DNA of 64,000 nucleotides from Siphonodentalium dalli (Eukaryota; Mollusca; Scaphopoda; Gadilida; Siphonodentaliidae): positions 148,357,379 to 148,421,378 of the forward strand of contig CP136063.1 of assembly GCA_032622095.1 (NCBI GenBank), given 5' to 3'. Shown one piece after another: positions 4,032 through 51,490 of this stretch. The notes beneath the pieces were generated by a model. The model worked only from the letters and a program-made list of their open reading frames with translations. It searched no databases and had not been told where the DNA came from. The translations under genes and the position numbers were made by a program. Position 1 is the stretch's first letter. Each line of letters begins with the position of its first letter.

Positions 4032-4090
4032 TGAGCTCGATTGCTCAAGTCTGCGGGGGCATTTATGATGTAATTGCGGAACTTAAGTTA

Positions 4091-4470
4091 AAGTGATGTG
4101 AAACACTCCGGTAGGGTGATAAAATAGAAATGGAGAATAATGTTGTTCAAAGTAGTTATTTTTACAAATATTATATCTAAATTGACAACACACACCGACA
4201 TTCTTTTATATTATTTAAATGCAGTGACTGCCGATGGCGAAATCGTTTTCGTTAGTTTATCGCCGATAGAAGCGTTTCGATTCGAGTAGTAAATATTTAC
4301 AATTCAGCGTAGTTCAGACAATGTTTTCTATGTCCAGAGTGGTACGGTCGATTTGCTTGAGATTTTCGGTGATGTTAGTAGAATGCTACATTCCTCCAGT
4401 TGACATAGCACCCGAATATTAACTTTTCGGTTTCACGCACCCGAACAAGTACATAATATGTCTTTAATAC
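4091..4470 (+). repeat. Dispersed family A, copy 1
   Basis: A ~380 bp sequence that recurs at 6115-6505 and 39249-39602 in the same orientation. Shared landmarks are AAGTGATGTGAAACACTCCGG at the left, TTGACAACACACACCG, GCAGTGACT, a TCGAGTAGTAAATATT block, TAGTAGAATGCTACATTCCTCCAGTTG, and ACATAATATGTCTTTAA at the right. I see no terminal inverted repeat, poly(A) tail or open frame. The flanks of the three copies differ, so these are dispersed copies and not one large duplication. Confidence 0.8.
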
Positions 4471-6114
4471 TGATTTAAATGATAGCACTGAGTAAAAAAC
4501 GGACCCAGTTTTACTTCGGTGTGAAACAATAAAGAGCTGTGCTTGTTAGTCTATTCCTGATACAACACAAATAAAGAGCGTCTGTCTCGTTTCGCTGTGC
4601 AATAAATTGAGAACAGATTTCTACAAAGAAATCCTGCTGATCAGTAATGTGTATTTAACGACATATATCTTATCCCTCACCCCAAATAACCCATGTCCGT
4701 TCAACGCTAACACACCAGAGAAATCTCACATAAACTGGCTTCTGGATGCTTGCACTCACGTGCAGTGACAATGTGAACCATTTTCAGCAAGCAAACTTAA
4801 AGAACATGCACAAAAAAGTTCGTTTCTAAACATCAATCATTTGATCAACAGACACCGCGCAAGTTTTATTCGGATGTGACTGTGCGTGTTCCTGTCCGAG
4901 TTTGTTATTGTCCATGTCCGTATCACGCAGAACTGAGCTGGAATACATGCGCAGACTGCACGCGAGCTAATAGTCTATCCTCATTTTGTGGAATCGCGCA
5001 GGCGCAGTTGCGGAAATAGTTTCATGTCGGTCTCCGGTTCCTGCATCCTGTTTCTTTGTTTGTAGACGCTCAACTTCCTGGTTACCGTTTCTGACAAATT
5101 GGACTATTTACGCTTCGAGACAGGACGAGGACCAAACACGCGTTTAGTGACGTCGAGCATCCCTACCGCGGTCATACCGGTGCCAGACACTTTCAGTCTG
5201 TATACTGTGTGTATGGCTAATTAGCAGGGGAAATGCTTATTTTTGTTTAAATGTCTAATAGTATAACTCCTACTATACCAACCATAATCGCAATTATGAA
5301 TATTACTCATGTTTTTATAAGGATCGCCTGTATTCCATGTGATATGTATAAATACGAGGAAAATGACTGTATTTCGTGTCCCCTTGTCGTAATTTGACTC
5401 ATTTCATTGTATAACATTTAATTGTAATACACAAGAGTAGACTGAGTGGTCTGATCTCTGAAAAAACAAAGATATTAATTTTGTCCATGATTTGGAGATT
5501 ATTAATAATTTCCTATTCTCACTGTATGGAAACGAAACCATCCATCAACCGAATCAGGATATAGCACAGTAACAAGTTAGGGCCCTGTATTGGTATATAC
5601 TGTTATTGTGGACCCACCTCTTGCTATATTATGGAATGTCTCCTCAATATTCCTCGACGAATCAATGAAGACTCTATATGATGTGTGCTTTGCGAAACAT
5701 ATCGGTAATGGCTGACATGAGGTTTTCGCGAGTGTGCTCAATCATTCCGAGTTCCGATGCCTACGATAACCATTTAAGGTCGAACACACACACACCATAT
5801 ATACACTATGTACATGAGATATTTCAATAAGCATGTTAACATCATATTACATATACGTCTTGATGTTCACTGTGCTCCCTGGTTTAAGTTGCAATGCACC
5901 CTTGTGGGCAACAGCAAAATACAACAGAAAGAGGCAGTAAAGTTAATTAACCACCCGCTTTGTTGTCGTTTTTTGGTATTTGATTGATTGTGGGTATCAC
6001 CGAGGCCAGTGATGCTAACTGTAAGCTGTCTCAGTGCATGAGTATAACCTCTCGACCGTGGTGATGTCAGCAACGGATGGATGTAGTTGAAATATTCCTG
6101 GGTTAATTATTTTA
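4471..6114. other. Unassigned stretch with a GC-richer core
   Basis: No open frame is credible here. The segment 4900-5220 is clearly richer in GC and CpG than its surroundings and holds several vertebrate-style promoter motifs, listed separately. The rest is AT-rich sequence that I could not match to anything else in the window. Confidence 0.5.
4948..5155. promoter_or_regulatory. Candidate TATA-less CpG-rich promoter
   Basis: Within about 200 bp lie an NRF-1-like CGCGCAGGCGCAG (4995-5007), a further GCGCA/CACGCG pair (4948-4964), an ETS-like AACTTCCTGG (5072-5081) and a CRE-like TGACGTCG (5148-5155). These motif types are typical of TATA-less animal promoters. I cannot tell the direction of transcription, and no coding exon is visible on either side. 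The call is inference from motif clustering only. Confidence 0.25.
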
Positions 6115-6505
6115 AAGTGATGTTTTACACCCCGGTATTGTGATCAAATAGAAATTGAAAATAATCTTGCTCAAAGTAGTTCTTTATAAATTTTTTTTAC
6201 AAATAGTATATCAAAATTGATAACACACCGTCATTCTTACATATTAATTAAATACAGTGACTCCCGATGGCGGAAAATATTCATTAATTTATCGCCGATA
6301 GTTACATCCCGAATCGAGAAATAAATATTTACAATTGAGCGTATAGTTCAAACGATTTTTTCTATATGGAGTGGTGCGGTCGATTTGAATGAGAATTTCG
6401 GCGGTGTTAGTATAGAATGCTATATTCCTTCAGTTGGCTTAGCGTCTGATTACTAACTTATTAGTTTCACGCACAAGAACATCTCCATATATATTGTGTC
6501 TTTAA
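6115..6505 (+). repeat. Dispersed family A, copy 2
   Basis: Homologous along its length to 4091-4470, more diverged at the left (AAGTGATGTTTTACACCCCGG). It keeps the GCAGTGACTCCCGATGGCG, ATAAATATTTACAATTGAGCG and AGAATGCTATATTCCTTCAGTTGG blocks. The sequence just downstream, TTTGTAATTGCAG ending at 6527, looks like a splice acceptor, but it leads into no exon I can recognise. Confidence 0.75.
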
Positions 6506-38462: not shown

Positions 38463-39248
38463 GAAAAATAACTGAAATGTTATCCCACAACACATATACA
38501 ATGTATATATATACCTGGGTTGAGCACATACTAGACTTAAAGATTTTGGTACATAATTGTCATTTTAATGGGGGTAGCAAGAGTTATGCCCCTTGATTGT
38601 GTGCCTGAAAAATGAAATTTTGATGCAAAAATTGCCAAAATAAGCGATTTCAAGCCCGTGGGACACAAAACCCAGAAAATCTATGGTATAGCCGCCTATG
38701 TTGTCTGGAAGAACACCGTTTCCTAACAATAATATCAAAACATTCAAACTTCTCACCACTGTAAGTTTAAAAAAAATATTTTTCATGCAGATGACAAATT
38801 TTAGGAGCTAAAAAGTCACGCTGGTGTCTGGAGCCACTGTTTCGCAGAAATCGCTACTACTTCATACTGGTGGGGTCAAGGTCACCTGAAACAATATTTT
38901 TCAAAACTCAAAGACATCCTCTAAAAATCCACAAATTCATAACTAACCTTCTCTCAATAAACATACCACACCCATGGTGACAGAAAACACTGGTACTCTG
39001 TTCTAAGAAATTTACCCCTACTGATCATTCGAAACTGTGGAGTGTCACCTCAGGAATGTTGTCGTCAGTGCGGTATACATGCATTTGTATGTAACGACAA
39101 ATAGAAAGTTGTTTTCTTGTGAAGTGCACCTCTGTCGTTATCATGTGACTCGTTTAACGCCAACGATCAAGCTTTTTCACAGGTAAGCAAGGGCATGCCC
39201 GTTGTTATAAGGTGATCCAGATACACCAAAGAAATCAAGTTTTTTTTC
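38463..39248. other. No gene seen
   Basis: AT-rich. The region 38560-38640 (GGGGGTAGCAAGAGTTATGCCCCTTG) has the look of a dispersed repeat but has no partner here. Confidence 0.45.
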
Positions 39249-39602
39249 AAAGTGATATGAAGCACTCCGGTAGGGTGATCAAATATAAATGGAGAATATT
39301 CCTGTTCAAAGTAGTAATTATTACAAATATTATATTCAAATTGACAACACACACCGTCATTCTTATATATTAATTAAATGCAGTGACTCTCGGTGGCGAA
39401 ACCGATAGATGCGTCCCGAATCGAGTAGTAAATATTCATAATTGAGCGTAGTTCAGACAATGTTTTCTATGGAGTGGTATGGTCGATTTGCTTCAGATTT
39501 TCGGCAATGTTAGTAGAATGCTACATTCCTCCAGTTGGCAGAGCGGCCGAATATTAACTTATCAGTTTCACGCACCAGAACAAGTACATAATATGTCTTT
39601 AA
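39249..39602 (+). repeat. Dispersed family A, copy 3
   Basis: Third copy of the family at 4091-4470. It starts AAGTGATATGAAGCACTCCGG and ends ACATAATATGTCTTTAA. It keeps CAGTTGGCAGAGCGGCCGAATATT near its right end, in which TGGCAGAGCGG resembles a polymerase III A box. No B box follows at a normal distance. It stands ~160 bp before the 39 bp minisatellite. Confidence 0.8.
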
Positions 39603-43189: not shown

Positions 43190-45690
43190 GAATGTGTTAA
43201 TTGGTAAAGCGGTTAGTAGCGACTATATATTTTTGAACTTCTGCAAATATTAATTTGTTTTTGTTATTACTAATGTTTGTTATACCTTTAAGGAGGTCGG
43301 CGATATTGTATACAGTGATACCCTTTGTTCTAAGCCTGTTAAAAAGCCGTACGCGTTGTGTCTGGTATAGGGGACATAAGAAAAAGTACACAGAATGGGC
43401 TAAGAGCTATGTCGTTTTCGAATTTGTCATGATTTAAGTCGCTGCATTTGTTTCTCAATTTGGTATGTATTATATTGTTTTTTCTGGAACCGGTATAATA
43501 GTAGTTTGGGGGTTTGGGTATGTAGTATATAATTTTGAGGAATATCTTGAATTCATGTAGGCTTTCAGCTTTGGTTACAATGTCGGGGAGTTTGTTCCAA
43601 GTTAGGCACATTTTTGGCATGAACGATTTTCTGAAATGTGCAGTTTCGCAATAATATGCGTAGAAGTCGCCAGGTCTTCTGAAGGAATATACCCGGTACC
43701 TCGCCGGCTCGTGGTGGTAGGAATATGGTTAGATAACTAGGTGCGTCAGCATTTATTATTTTGTAAAGCGTTTGTAATTTGTGAAATTTGCGTCTTATTT
43801 GCAGTGTGGGCCATCCAACTTCAAGCATTAAATCTTAAATGGATGCAGAGCGTGTTAATCCACTGACAATTCTTGCTGCTTCTCTATGAAGGCGATCGAG
43901 TCATTCAGTCTGTTGTTGTGGCGCACAGTCCCAGACAATATCAACGTAGTCCATTAGGGGGGGGAGTATATAAGTTAGATAAATACATTCAAGTGTCTTT
44001 CGGTCAAGCTTATATTTTAGCTTTCTGAGTTGGGATAATCTTGCAGAAACCTTCTTCGCTACATTATCCAGATAATTGTTCCATTTGAGATTATTTTGGA
44101 GTTCCAGACCAAGATGCGTGTGCGAATCTACAAAGGAAACGTCGTTTCCCTGGAATTGCAAGTTGAGATGGGAATTTCCGGATACTATAGGGAGTAAGAT
44201 AGCGCTACAGTTTTTAGTGGATTGAAGGACACTAACCATTTTTGAGCCCATTCGTCAATTTTATTCAAGTCGTTATTTAAATCACTTGTAAGAATATCCA
44301 TATCGTAATGAGAGGCAGTCAAGCATATATCGTCTGCGAACATTAGCGTATCGGATTGGGTGACGTCAGGTAGGTCGTTTATATAGACCAGAAATAGGAA
44401 CGGGCCCAATATTTATCCCTTGGGGCACCCCTGCTGGGATACGTTTCAAGTCAGAATATGTATTATTTACAAGGATTCTTTGGTTTCTGTTGTGTAGATA
44501 ATCCTCCAGCAAGGGCTTTGTTCAATTTGAGGGTTTTGATACTTGTTATGATGTTTTCTCTTGATACTTCAATTTCCGTTATCGTGTTTGAGCAGCGAAG
44601 TTTAAATAACAGGGGGTTGCTGTCTTCACTCGCTAATGTTGAATTTGATATGAAACTCTCGTTTAGAATGTTCGCTTTCTCGAAAGCATCAAATGCATAA
44701 GTATCGGCATGGGTACTATTTATTACAGGTTGATTATATATTGGCGGGATAGTCGCTGTTTTGAATCGTTCATTATACTTCTAGAAATTTGTCATTGAAT
44801 GATCTAACTGCTTGGTCGATGTTTGTCGCTGCAGTTGGCTGGAGGATATGTTCCCATGCAGTCTATGCTATTTAATATATTATTGGCCTTTTCAAAGTCA
44901 GCCCGTTTATAATTCCAAATAGTACGATGGAATGAGGTTGCAGGGGAATAGTCTGATGATATATATAGTGGCATGGTCTGAAACTCCAAGATTTAATGTA
45001 TCGGCATCCAGTACCCTCAAAGAATCACTAACTATCAGTGGATCAAGAAGAGTTTGGGATGTTCTTGCTATTCGCGTAGGTTTTTCAATCACATCTCGCA
45101 GTACGTATATAGTAATCGATTATGCCCTTTAGTTTTAACAATGGGTTCAGGAGATTTGAGTTGAAAACGCCAGTGATTATTAGTTTATGGTTTGCATCAA
45201 GCACGTCATTTATCAAAGTTTCTAAGTTGTCCCAGTAGTTTTGATTACTCTCGCGTTCGGACCTATAGGAAACAATCAGAAGGAATTTGGTGAGTTTTGA
45301 TGTAATTTCAAAGCAGAGTACTGATGTGTCAAATTCAAATTCGGGTCGCCGGCTAAATATAATATGATTTGCAAACATTACACATATCCCTCCACCATGA
45401 GAGTCGCGATCACTCCGCACGGGTTCAGAGAAGTCAAATAGTTTTAGTTTGTTAGAGCTATAAGATGCATCAAGATGAGTCTCGCTGAAACATAAAATAT
45501 CGTAGTCGGAAATCAAGTGAGCAATGCTTTCTAATTTGTTTCTAATACTTCTAATATTGTAGTGTAATATGTTGAGTGTAGCTATATATAGTATCATCGT
45601 GGGGGCCGGGGTGAACCTCAATAGCGCCACCAATTACAAGGAGCAAAGCCATGAAATATATAATAATGTTGATTTTCATTCCCCAAAATG
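43190..45690 (-). pseudogene. Degenerate LINE: 2A-like start, endonuclease, partial reverse transcriptase
   Basis: A non-LTR retrotransposon on the minus strand, of the APE-endonuclease type (CR1/Jockey-like style). From 5' to 3': Met at 45677-45679, a hydrophobic run and a 2A-like motif (45602-45628). Then an endonuclease (45630-45085) with NIRSIRNK, SETHLD and GGGICVMFANH, where the usual GDFN is GVFN. Then a linker (45092-44700). Then the reverse transcriptase, with AGVPQG, LGPFLFLVYINDLP and the catalytic FADD at 44329-44340. The thumb and tail follow to a stop at 43197. The end NKALAGG of the early RT is joined almost directly to YLHNRNQR, so the fingers and the first catalytic Asp block are missing. 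Several frameshifts make it dead. A CR1- or L2-type assignment needs a tree. Confidence 0.9.
45602..45628 (-). other. 2A-like peptide coding motif in the LINE
   Basis: On the minus strand the codons read G-A-I-E-V-H-P-G-P after a hydrophobic LLLVIG run. The 2A ribosome-skipping consensus is D-V/I-E-x-N-P-G-P. Here the D is A and the N is H, so the motif is a recognisable but degraded version. Amino-terminal 2A sequences are known in APE-type LINEs of molluscs, sea urchins and lancelets. A one-base frame change between this motif and the endonuclease frame confirms decay. Confidence 0.7.
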
Positions 45691-45865
45691 CTTATTCGGG
45701 CCCACGTTTTATAATTAGTTTTATATTCAGTAATCTTTTATTTAGATCGAAGATACCAATTGCAGCTCTATGTTGAATCAAAGAGTTAGGCATGAGATTT
45801 TATTCTGGATTTCCAATTGTATATTGTAGATTTCCAATTGTATATTGTATATGTTTCATGTATAG

Positions 45866-46001
45866 GCCCCTACTTACCTCACTAATATATTACCACCCAG
45901 GATAGCCGATATATCCGAGTATAAATTCAGAAACCCCGAATTTTTTTACACATATTTCAGCAATACTGAGCATTACAAAAAGTCATTTTTCACCTCAACC
46001 A
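45866..46001 (+). pseudogene. LINE copy 2, part left of the transposon insertion
   Basis: The plus-strand translation APTYLTNILPPR and then EYKFRNPEFFYTYF...EHYKKSFFTSTI aligns with the minus-strand LINE's APSYLTIFLPPR, YSFRRPGDFYAYY and HFRKSFMPKM segments. It belongs to the carboxyl-terminal region after the reverse transcriptase. The frame runs to the insertion point and continues at 50746. The 5' part of this LINE is absent or unrecognisable (before ~45860). Confidence 0.8.
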
Positions 46002-46004
46002 TAA
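46002..46004. other. TAA target-site duplication, left
   Basis: The same three bases follow the transposon at 50743-50745. Reading the LINE with one TAA removed gives an uninterrupted codon series (STI-KAW). Confidence 0.8.
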
Positions 46005-46175
46005 TAGTAGGGCGGCTAAGTGTAAAATTATGGTAAAATCGTTCAGTTGGTGATACAAGCATGAAATTTGGTATGCATGATCAATATATATTACTAAAAC
46101 AAATTGCTCGACAAACCAATCAAAATGGCAACCGGATTCACGATGGCCGCCATTTTTCAAAATGGCCACCGCATT
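46005..46175 (+). repeat. Left terminal inverted repeat of the 4.74 kb transposon
   Basis: TAGTAGGGCGGCTAAGTG is followed by AAAATCGTTCAGTTGGTG, ATACAAGCATGAAATTTGG, GATCAATAT, TTGCTCGACAAACCA and GATGGCCGCCATTTT. Relative to the right end it has an extra ~10 bp (TATGGTAAAA) after the first 24 bp. Confidence 0.88.
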
Positions 46176-46739
46176 GAACTTCTACCCAATATATAAGATA
46201 CACTAACCACTTTTCGGTTCTTTCTTTGTTACGATATATAATTAAATCATCCCTTTAAAGGTTGCGTTATCATAAGTATGCAAAATTATTATTATTTTTC
46301 GGAATTTATTGATTATTTTCAGATTTTTACAGATTTTTTTCTCAAATTTTTCAAAAAATATCTAGATGACTGACTTTTTCATCAACTATTGTATAGGTCT
46401 ATATGTGGTATAACATAGATACTTAGTTCATATATCTGTTAACGGCATGCAATTTCTTTGGTAGTTCTCTTCTGGAGTTATTGAATTTTGTTAAATGATA
46501 TGTGTAAATAGGCTGTTAACATACATGCGCGAGTTGGTATAGTGTGAGTTAAAATGTTTAAGCTATGCTTGGTGTTGATATTATTGACAACACAATTGCT
46601 AATATTAATAGTGTAATCAATTGTATGCATTTCATATTTGAAGTCATTAAAATACTGTTGACATGTCATTCCATATTTTGTACAAATGGGTCTTCCATAA
46701 TGTATTGATTATTTTCTTAAGCAGATGACAAATTTCTCT

Positions 46740-49700
46740 GAAGGAGGAGCACAAACATGGTCGCGATATGCTTATGACTTTCTCAGATACAGTTAGTTCT
46801 GTACTATCTCAAGCTTGTAAATATTATGAAGTGCTACAACTTGCTGGAGCAGCAGAAATCATTCGTAAACATATGCTTGAACATCATACCAAATTTTACA
46901 ACAAGTTTGAACAAGTATACAAAGTTCTGTATCACAAAGCCTTCTGCAATGTGTATGTATGATCGAGCATGGTGCTGACATCAACAGCTTACAAATGGTG
47001 CAACAAAGTCTGATTTAACAATCGCGCAGTTATTACAATTCAACTGTTTCTCCTCTAGATATAAGGACAAATCATTTTATCATCGCCACTGTAAAGACCG
47101 TGAAAAACCATTCCCTATATACACTGGCATCATTATGTACGCAAAAAACAAGGAAACGAAACCTGATTTTACATGTTCTATGAAAAGTGACTGAGTAATA
47201 TCTTATGATCGTGAGATGGACATCTCAAACCAGCTTGGAAATATTGTTGTTAAACATTATCAAACAGATGGAGTTATGTGTCCACCTATATTGAGAAAAG
47301 GCTTGTTCACCACATCTGCTTTGGACCATAATGATCACAACCCTATATCAACTACCAGCACACCATATGTCCACGGGACAAATATTTTCATGTTTCAGCA
47401 TCCGCATCCAGATAATCAAGGCGAGCAGCAACCTATTGACTCCAGTTCTGGAAAAACTGGAAAAACGAAACAAATCCCACATCTTCCGGTCTCGTATACA
47501 AATGTTCCACCTGTCTACTAGTATTTAAAAGATGTAAAGCCAAACCCACCAACCAACACTGGCTTTGGTCTACCTGGTTCAACTGTTTTTCAAAAACATC
47601 TTCGGCTGGATTATGAGTGGTTGCAAAAGGCCTCGTCAACAGAAGTCATTGATGGTAGTACATCAATAATATGGTCAGCTCATCATGCAACTCAAAAGAG
47701 ATGTCAGCAGTTTGATGTAGCAATAACCTCAATGTTATCTACGTTGCGTGATCAGGCTCACTCATTAACCACCATAAAACATTGCATGCGCAAAATTAAT
47801 GAATCGGTTCAACTTCTAAAATCAGAACGGACACTCAGTGGTCATTACTGCAGACCAGCCTCTGTATGCATTGGCTAAGCAGATACAGTGGCAGTGGCCA
47901 GACTTATATGGTGAGGACAGATATGTTGTTATGCTTGGAGGGTTACATCTGGAATTGGATGCTCTAACGATGGTTGGTTCAGTGCTTCAGGATAGCGACT
48001 GGGCGAGTGCTCTCGTAGAAGCAGGTATAGCAAGCCAGGCACAGCATATTCATTCATCAAAGCTTCATGTATTACAAAAACCCGACAAGCACATCAGATA
48101 ACAGCGTGTAGTCTTTTAAAACTCATGAAATTTGCACACTCAGAATACTGCAGTCGGGATTTATCCCATGTTGATAGTATGCACTCAAATTTCAATGACT
48201 GGTATAAAAGTAAATGTGCTGTTATATAGTCCACAGTTCCAGTTCTGGAGTTTGGTGCTTGACAATTGTACTGCTGGTCAGATCATTTCGAGGAGCAAAT
48301 TTCACTCTGTATCGTGAAGTGGTATCTGAAATAATTCCTTATTTCTTTGCCAATGATAACACTCACTATCCACATTGGCTACTTATTCACAGACATGATG
48401 ACAATAGATAATAAACATCCCAGCATAGCAAATGAATTTCAGAGGAAACTGTGTTGTACACAAGACTGAAAGAAACTTCTCAAGTATGGCAATAAACCAG
48501 GCCCATGAACAGCACTATACAGTCTTGAAAGGGGGTGGAGGAGCAATTGGGATAACTGAGGATGAAGCACACTCAATAGATGGATGGTCGCTAGTCCAGA
48601 ATTATGTTGCGTTATTTCTGATTATGATAAGGATATCACATAAGAAACCAACTATCACGAGGAGACAATTGCATATCAAAAAATGTTTTTCAATAATGTG
48701 AACAACCTCACAGATGTGATACAAGGAATGGGAAATCCGTTTCCTGATGACTCCACAGACCTGTTGGCATTGGACACCAGAAACATTGTAGACCCAGTTA
48801 ATGCTGAACTGATTCACGTTGTCTATAAGAAAGGCAAGGATTTGTCTGCGTCATTCATAAAACGAATGGGAAATCAAAATAAATGTACTTTCTATGATCT
48901 AATCAAAAGACATTCTATTTCAATTTTTCGGTCTTCTCCAGCTTAAATAAAATCAAAGAAAACAAGTACGAAATATGATTGTCAACTCTTCTCTCGATTG
49001 TTCATATCTTGTCAGACCTTTGTGACATTTTTGCACATGAAAACCAGATTTCTCCAGCATCAATCAGTAACGATGGAAAACTCATATGTGCCAGAAATCT
49101 CAATAGATGGATATATTTGAAGCAGAGTTAACACTGCCTGCATGAGGAAGCACACACTGCAGATGCTGTACTGCTAATAGATGGTTCTGACATAATAAAT
49201 GTTCTTCAACCTAATAGTGTGAAAACAATTGATGAATATGCACAAGACGATGTCATTCCTAAAATATACAGACATATTGCCATATATATAAGAGAACTGA
49301 CATCATGTTTGACGTGTACAAGACAGGTAGCTGCAAACAGGAAACTAGGTCAAAGCACGGAAAAGGAATCAGGAGAAGGGTATCAGGATCTAGCAAAACT
49401 CTAGCAGACTGGCATAGCTTTCTTCGCGATGACAACAACAAAACAGAGCTATCCGTAGTTCACTTCCTTGCTGACAAGATCATAACTGTTAATACGGACA
49501 ATGGCATTGTTGTTACCAAAGGTGAACATGTACAAAGTAACCATGAACTTGATTTGGATATTCTTGCACCATGTACACATAAAGAGGCCGATATAGGGAG
49601 TTTTGTGCATGCAAAACACGCAGTTATCAACCAACACAACAGCATCATAATCCAAGCCACCGACACGGATATATAGTGATTATAGATGTAATTGTATACT

Positions 49701-50315
49701 CAAGTTTGAAAGCATTCGGTCATAGAAAGAAATTCAGATGGATTCCGATACGTGAGATTGTTTCATCAATAGGTACAACAAAATGTTATGGAATTCTCTT
49801 TTTCCTTGCAATTAGTGGATGTGATGTGGTTCTGCATTTCGCAGGAAAGGAAAAAAGTCTGCATGGCAGACATGGAATTTTTTTCCAGAAGCTTTATCAA
49901 TTTTCTCCAAACTCAGCAATTCTCGAGTGTCCATCGCAGAACATAACATTGCAGTAATCGAGAGATTCGTTTTTTGCACGGAAACAGAGACCATACAATG
50001 CTATTCCACCTACAAGGTCTGCGCTGTTGCAGCATGTCAAGCGAGCCGCATACAAGGCAGGGCATATATGGGGACGATCATTGGCACGTAAACCAGCCAA
50101 CCTGAGTCCCACAGATTGGGAATGGGCAGAAAATCGCAGTCACTGGGAACCATTTTGGACGGAGCGTCCACCAATTGCCAAATGTTGCAGTCAGTTGACC
50201 AAATGCGGCTGCAAGAAGGCAAATGGTGGGCGATTCACATGCTACCATATTGGGCTTCCATTCACGATTTTATGCAGTTGTTGCTGCCAAGTTTAAAAGA
50301 CTCTAAGAACTGATA
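46740..50315 (+). pseudogene. Transposon protein, frameshifted, of a widespread invertebrate family
   Basis: Coherent blocks succeed one another in changing frames. 46768-46962: KYYEVLQLAGAAEIIRKH. 47020-47170: AQLLQFNCFSSRYKD and PIYTGIIMYAKNKETKP. 47216-47521: RKGLFTTSALDHNDHNP. 47838-48101: TADQPLYALAKQIQW and VVMLGGLHLELDALT. 48140-48225: SRDLSHVDSMHSNFNDW. 48500-48600: AINQAHEQHYTVLKGGGGAI. 48683-48946: MGNPFPDDSTDLLALDTRN. 49305-49676: RSKHGKGIRRRV, LAPCTHKEAD and QATDTDI. 49676-49957: FFLAISGCDVVLHFAGKEK. 50027-50310: HVKRAAYKAGHIWG and a Cys-rich CGCKK tail. I know this block order from many uncharacterised cnidarian and mollusc proteins. The DTD..GCD part looks like a PIN/XPG-type nuclease fold. 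Stops follow DTDI and several other blocks. Confidence 0.85.
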
Positions 50316-50569
50316 GTAATGAATGTGTGTAGATATCCCAGTACTGACATCATATATAGTGTGACGATAAATTGTTTGAAATTGGAATTTTTTTCACAAT
50401 TTGAAAGTTAAGTGATATAAAAATGCCTAAATTTTGAAACGAAACAGCTAAGTTGTTACAATATATTGTTTTAACATACTCATGTTGTGTTTTAATTTCA
50501 ATTCAACCTTTAGAAATGAAATGAGATCTCTTATTTGAGTGATACATCGATAAAATCGGTTAACTTTTC

Positions 50570-50742
50570 AAAATTCGAAAACTGACGTAGCTGAAAATGG
50601 TGGCCATCTTGAAAATGATGGCCATCTTGGATTTTCGCGTGGTTTGTCGAACAATATTGTTTAGTGGCCCATATTGATCATTCGTGCCAAATTTCATGCT
50701 TGTATCACCAAGTGAACGATTTTACACTTAGCCGCCCCACTA
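50570..50742 (-). repeat. Right terminal inverted repeat of the 4.74 kb transposon
   Basis: The inverted counterpart of 46005-46175, ending GCCGCCCCACTA at 50742. It holds two GATGGCCATC-type motifs (50600-50640), like the GATGGCCGCC and AATGGCCACC motifs of the left end. Confidence 0.88.
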
Positions 50743-50745
50743 TAA
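50743..50745. other. TAA target-site duplication, right
   Basis: Matches 46002-46004. The LINE frame resumes with the next base. Confidence 0.8.
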
Positions 50746-51490
50746 AAGCGTGGAACGACATGCCTTCCGCAATAACAGAAGCTCCGACGATTTTCGATTT
50801 TAAAGATTATCTTAGAATAATTGATCCTACCATTAGACCCCCAGTATATTTCTATACAGTAAGTAGGAAATATAATGTATTGCACGCCAGACTACGAAAC
50901 TATTGTAGTGATCTTCAGTCTGATAAATTCCAAAACTATATCTCAGGAAATCCACGTTGTATGTGCGGCAACCAGTGTGAAGATGCCTATCATTACTTCT
51001 TTATGCGTCCCCACTACCATGCAGTCAGAACGAACGGAGATGTTTCACCTGCTACACAGAGAAGGAATTAAATTAACACATATGAACAATCTACTTGTTG
51101 ACATCCCGAATACTCCTAACAAAAAAAATGTGAAACTGTTCAAAATAGTCCAACATTTTATCGCGGAGACTAAACGTTTCCAGTAAAATTTTACGACAAT
51201 AAATTAGTTTATCAATTAACACATATGCTTGTTTTTTTCGCCTCAGCATATCATGCACACTCGGCGTTGGCACCCCCCACCAATCATTCTCATTCTCACC
51301 CTTCCTCAATAACTGTTACAATCTTCCATCATCATTTTTTCCATTCACCACATGCAGCTGTAAATAAGTTACTTATTGTGCCACTTTGTTAAACAAATTG
51401 TTTGTACCAATGTATACCGGAGAGGGGCTCATTAAGTTTTGTAACTTGTGCCCCAATCCATTTTGTATTATACTACAAATAAAATATGAT
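50746..51490 (+). pseudogene. LINE copy 2, carboxyl terminus and 3' UTR
   Basis: KAWNDMPSAITEAPTIF through YTVSRKYNVLHARLRNYC aligns with WNKLPDIVTKAESL and YTGSRKNNIIHTKLRNKC of the LINE at 43.2-45.7 kb. A zinc-binding tail follows (PRCMCGNQCEDAYHYFF). A frameshift near 51035 moves the rest (HLLHREGIKLTHMN to HFIAETKRFQ) into another frame, with a stop ending at 51186. The 3' UTR has GGAGAGGGGCTCATTAAG and GTAACTTGTGCCCCAATCC and an AATAAA at 51478-51483. The LINE is a 5'-truncated, dead copy. Confidence 0.85.

Follow-up and report, generated by a model that had tools for sequence, protein, structure and literature searches.

A decayed transposon with AcademX-like features nested in a LINE of the scaphopod Siphonodentalium dalli

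The window, a stretch of 64,000 nucleotides from the genome of Siphonodentalium dalli (contig CP136063.1, positions 148,357,379 to 148,421,378 of the forward strand), contains a 5'-truncated LINE that is interrupted by a DNA transposon with terminal inverted repeats (TIRs). Direct reading placed this nested element at 46005-50742, giving a length of 4,738 bp, with TAA on both sides (Table 1). Across the insertion the window reads CATAA/TAGTAGGGCGGCTAAGTG ... CACTTAGCCGCCCCACTA/TAAAAGCG, slashes marking the boundaries. At the tips the inverted arms matched at 24 of 25 bases (46004-46028 and 50719-50743, 96% complementary), further inward they were 83% complementary (46033-46125 and 50633-50725), and by BLAST the whole TIR extended over about 160 bp with 73-74% identity between the arms, so that the left and right ends align in the way a preceding sequence-only reading had proposed. 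The same reading called the transposon complete, which holds for its ends and not for its coding region, as the latter is broken and has lost about 60 bp. A second, related EN-RT LINE with an Exo_endo_phos match was found just upstream in opposite orientation (window 43600-45633, minus strand). Another repeat is present in three copies in the window (4088-4467, 6111-6505 and 39238-39602) and also upstream of one paralogue of the interrupted LINE (L027).

Table 1 Features of the interrupted LINE and of the nested transposon (positions in the window)
Feature	Position	Strand	Evidence
Interrupted LINE, upstream part, 5'-truncated	45865..46004	+	6 genomic LINE copies with 89-97% identity
Left target-site duplication, TAA	46002..46004	.	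Direct reading; single trinucleotide in 7 uninterrupted LINE paralogues
TIR DNA transposon, 4,738 bp, decayed AcademX-like copy	46005..50742	+	Boundary common to further full copies; genome-wide terminal motif
Left TIR, TAGTAGGGCGGCTAAGTGTAAAAT...	46005..46170	+	Comparison of inverted arms, BLAST
Decayed transposase reading region	47015..50281	+	Equivalent to about residues 401-1527 of L053 (intact, 1,534 aa); 27-34% identity by tblastn, E=1e-101
FEN/XPG-like acidic motif region (HKEAD ... ATDTD ... SGCD)	49576..49825	+	Alignment to L053; motif level only
Site of private coding deletion of about 60 bp	49970..49971	+	59-64 bp present here in 20/20 other full copies
Cys-rich C-terminal tail, CCSQLTKCGCKKANGGRFTCYHIGLPFTILCSCC	50183..50296	+	Reading frame, alignment to L053
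Right TIR, TAGTGGGGCGGCTAAGTGTAAAAT... on minus strand	50594..50742	-	Comparison of inverted arms, BLAST
Right target-site duplication, TAA	50743..50745	.	Direct reading; single trinucleotide in 7 uninterrupted LINE paralogues
Interrupted LINE, downstream part	50746..51488	+	93-97% identical to the same genomic copies; paralogue homology ends at about 51488

Deletion of the element and one TAA in silico produced KSFFTSTIKAWNDMP, and the flanks joined by a single TAA are translated as one open frame, TEHYKKSFFTSTIKAWNDMPSAITEAP, that runs through the junction. Seven LINE paralogues from the same genome (92-97% identical) cross CATAA/AAGCG without a gap at this point, the junction reading CATAAAAGCG or CACAAAAGCG in these uninterrupted copies. 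When the genome was searched with the right flank, 39 of 41 LINE matches started at the first base of the query, position 50746. On the other side, LINE homology begins at 45865 in all six copies compared, and a seventh copy matches from 45928. Thus, the claim that removal of the element and one TAA restores the LINE frame was borne out by the single frame and the seven gapless paralogues. Colinearity with the second LINE of the window, also proposed before, was seen as 46% identity between the two across 101 aa, the second LINE lying on the minus strand near 43.6 kb. The frame is restored only locally, because the interrupted LINE carries an additional frameshift near 51.0 kb, downstream of the insertion. 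Relatives of this LINE encode an RVT_1 reverse transcriptase and have the C-terminal pattern KSF...WN(D/K)(M/L)P in common with it; the host, an EN-RT LINE with RVT_1, is here the target of the insertion and not the transposon.

The genome from which the window was taken (2.2 Gb, 9 contigs) contains at least 40 scored copies of the left end of the element with 95-100% identity, and likewise of the right end. When 20 genomic stretches spanning both ends were compared, homology from copy to copy stopped at TAGTRGGG, the same limits as at 46005 and 50742, apart from one or two ends that are mutated (the right end of L041 is such a case); the ends read from the window are therefore exact. Flanking trinucleotides were tabulated at 19 loci, with L034 and L035, almost identical duplicates that have their flanks in common, counted as one. 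Besides the window copy, in which the proposed TAA duplication agrees with the lone TAA of the LINE paralogues, an exact 3-bp duplication was found in 16 of the 19 other full copies (chance about 4% per copy; binomial tail about 1e-20). The duplicated trinucleotides were TTA and TAA (three copies each), TAT (two copies) and TCC, TGG, AAC, TTC, CTA, AAG, ACA and TAG (one copy each), and the flanking trinucleotides did not match in L033, L041 and L051. L051 and L052 are not independent, since they share the right flank. L052 has two left ends, at L052:317 and L052:1665, which lie 1.3 kb apart and have an identical outer flank; this points to a tandem duplication that arose locally at a single insertion.

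The exact terminal motif occurred 136 times genome-wide and its reversed pattern, used as a control, not once. TAA or TTA preceded 40 of these termini, compared with about 7% expected at 66% A+T, and the remaining 96 were preceded by other trinucleotides; the listed pairs of nearby termini with TAA/TTA at both flanks were all oriented as a direct duplication requires. The target of the family is thus A+T-leaning and not specific for TAA/TTA. At G000:C6:54940516-54946959, two such termini flanked by TTA/TAA lie further apart, 6.4 kb in all, and enclose a 428-aa open frame that is 84% identical to the motif region of the family.

The coding region was read against L053, a relative elsewhere in the genome with an intact open frame of 1,534 aa (G000:C3:20744512-20749114). 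Decay was judged from indels in the alignments and not from raw stop counts in the tblastn frames, which overstate it because one HSP is partly out of frame. Private to the window copy are +4 at 47835, -11 at 48258, +2 at 49669 and the missing stretch of about 60 bp at 49970, of which the +2 at about 49669 shifts the frame of the FEN/XPG-like motif region. The window copy shares three further indels with L033 and L034, namely -1 at 48034, +4 at 48223 and -1 at 49830. The window copy is dead. A genome-wide search for relatives of the encoded protein gave 4,639 first-look candidates and 144 scored matches, the query being an approximate sequence of a generic relative that served as bait and not as evidence of identity. 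Several of these matches, for example L053, have uninterrupted frames of at least 1,500 aa, and the matches point to a large Academ-like expansion in the genome.

AcademX elements have ordered FEN/XPG-like acidic motifs and a Cys-rich C-terminus. In L053, E-A-D ... D-x-D ... G-C-D follow one another with a spacing similar to that of the acidic residues of FEN1-type nucleases; the catalytic role of these residues is putative. The spaced pattern, picked after inspection of the sequence, appeared in 7 of 20,000 shuffles of L053. Both L053 and the window copy have a C-terminal Cys cluster, which may be the defining Cys region of the family. When the motif region was compared by hhalign with a stretch of human FEN1 that matches the deposited FEN1 almost exactly, the result was not significant, the alignment being very shallow with few sequences. 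Pfam returned nothing relevant, XPG included, for fragments of the element, longer fragments of sister copies or the intact L053. Searches of PDB sequences gave chance matches only, no match of L053 to viral contigs was confirmed, and a text search of the literature for the motif returned nothing.

In the summary given by PMC10045372 (after Kapitonov and Jurka 2010; Kojima 2020), AcademX is a lineage within the Academ superfamily that encodes a nuclease and produces 3- or 4-bp target duplications, AcademH duplications being 9-10 bp long; Academ consensus elements of bivalves have a mean length of 5,565 bp (PMC10294476). The window element has TIRs and its family duplicates exactly 3 bp, in the 16 copies and the window copy alike. 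We apply the label AcademX-like because the traits given in PMC10045372 and PMC10294476 match the duplication length and size seen here and the acidic motifs would agree with a nuclease. The element would thus fit an AcademX-type transposon best, judging from its duplication length, a size in the range of about 4-6 kb, the order of its acidic motifs and its Cys-rich tail, the latter two recognised by motif inspection and from general features of the family. The likeness is one to published descriptions, and the name is meant as a probable assignment rather than as proven membership; the element also differs from AcademX in that the window copy is decayed and its family consists largely of deletion derivatives.

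Other identities were weighed against the same data. PIF/Harbinger elements characteristically duplicate TAA/TTA, and the window duplication, together with the excess of TAA/TTA in front of the termini, would suit such an element; however, the likeness is limited to one site, as 10 of the 16 duplications in the family are not TAA/TTA (TAT twice and the eight trinucleotides seen once), most termini lack a preceding TWA and Pfam contained no match to a Harbinger domain. A PIF/Harbinger origin is accordingly most improbable, and was rejected on the non-TWA duplications, unless the copies concerned are chimeric. CMC elements (EnSpm/CACTA-Chapaev-Mirage) can make 3-bp duplications as well, and a CACTA-like string closes the 3' end (...CACTA or ...TACTA), but in the wrong orientation. 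The ends begin with TAGT and not CACT, and no CMC transposase domain appeared in the Pfam results, so that a CMC element, judged here by its ends and by Pfam domains, seems very unlikely; EnSpm/CACTA was rejected since the ends of essentially all copies begin with TAGTR and not with CACTA/CACTG.

That the family, with its XPG-like motifs and 3-bp duplications, constitutes an undescribed superfamily of its own is unlikely. It would agree with the complete lack of matches in the Pfam and PDB sequence libraries, but these libraries hold no repeat references and their silence is expected, and size and duplication length fit AcademX as published (PMC10045372, PMC10294476), as does the motif order with what is known of the family. 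Rather doubtful, too, is a reading in which the family is an XPG-motif lineage, possibly outside the described Academ elements, with thousands of loci, several intact frames of 1,000-1,500 aa and deletion derivatives that spread recently in trans. TAA is frequent in A+T-rich DNA, and a misjoined repeat with a fortuitous TAA on both sides would look similar at this one site; the gapless empty site in the paralogues and the recurrence of these ends in dozens of copies refute such an artefact, leaving chance or misassembly a negligible probability.

We consider it likely that an AcademX-type transposon inserted into the resident 5'-truncated LINE with a 3-bp TAA duplication, was mobilised in trans and decayed later. 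Such a cut-and-paste element would have entered the 3' coding part of the LINE, where a 3-bp staggered cut would have doubled the TAA. Lesions shared with L034 are most likely older than the dispersal of the copies, because L034 lies elsewhere with its own TCC duplication. Shared internal deletions also define three subfamilies (L042/L043/L047/L049, L044/L045/L048/L050 and L037-L039), whose members are 97-99% identical, occupy different sites and differ in their 3-bp duplications. Since frame-breaking indels and internal deletions are shared across different sites, mobilisation in trans is the simplest reading, and the transposase of another copy probably moved the window copy. Further decay, with the coding deletion of about 60 bp and small indels, would have followed the insertion.

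The view that the transposon is younger than the host LINE copy is upheld by the nesting, which dates it in relative terms only. Private substitutions, whose counts vary with the number of relatives sampled, amounted to 62/4573 (1.36%) in the transposon versus 12/876 (1.37%) in the LINE (Fisher p=1), and because private divergence is equal, the two events are not separated in time. In a three-way comparison the transposon's own branch was about 1.9%.

The insertion is an ordinary nested insertion, as had been observed correctly from the window, and the present analysis adds the duplications at the level of the family and the probable Academ identity. The host LINE served as an exact empty site, by which both the ends and the duplication length were fixed independently of a reference database. 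To our knowledge, transposition has not been demonstrated for the Academ superfamily, and this genome appears to hold many Academ-like elements whose open frames are intact.
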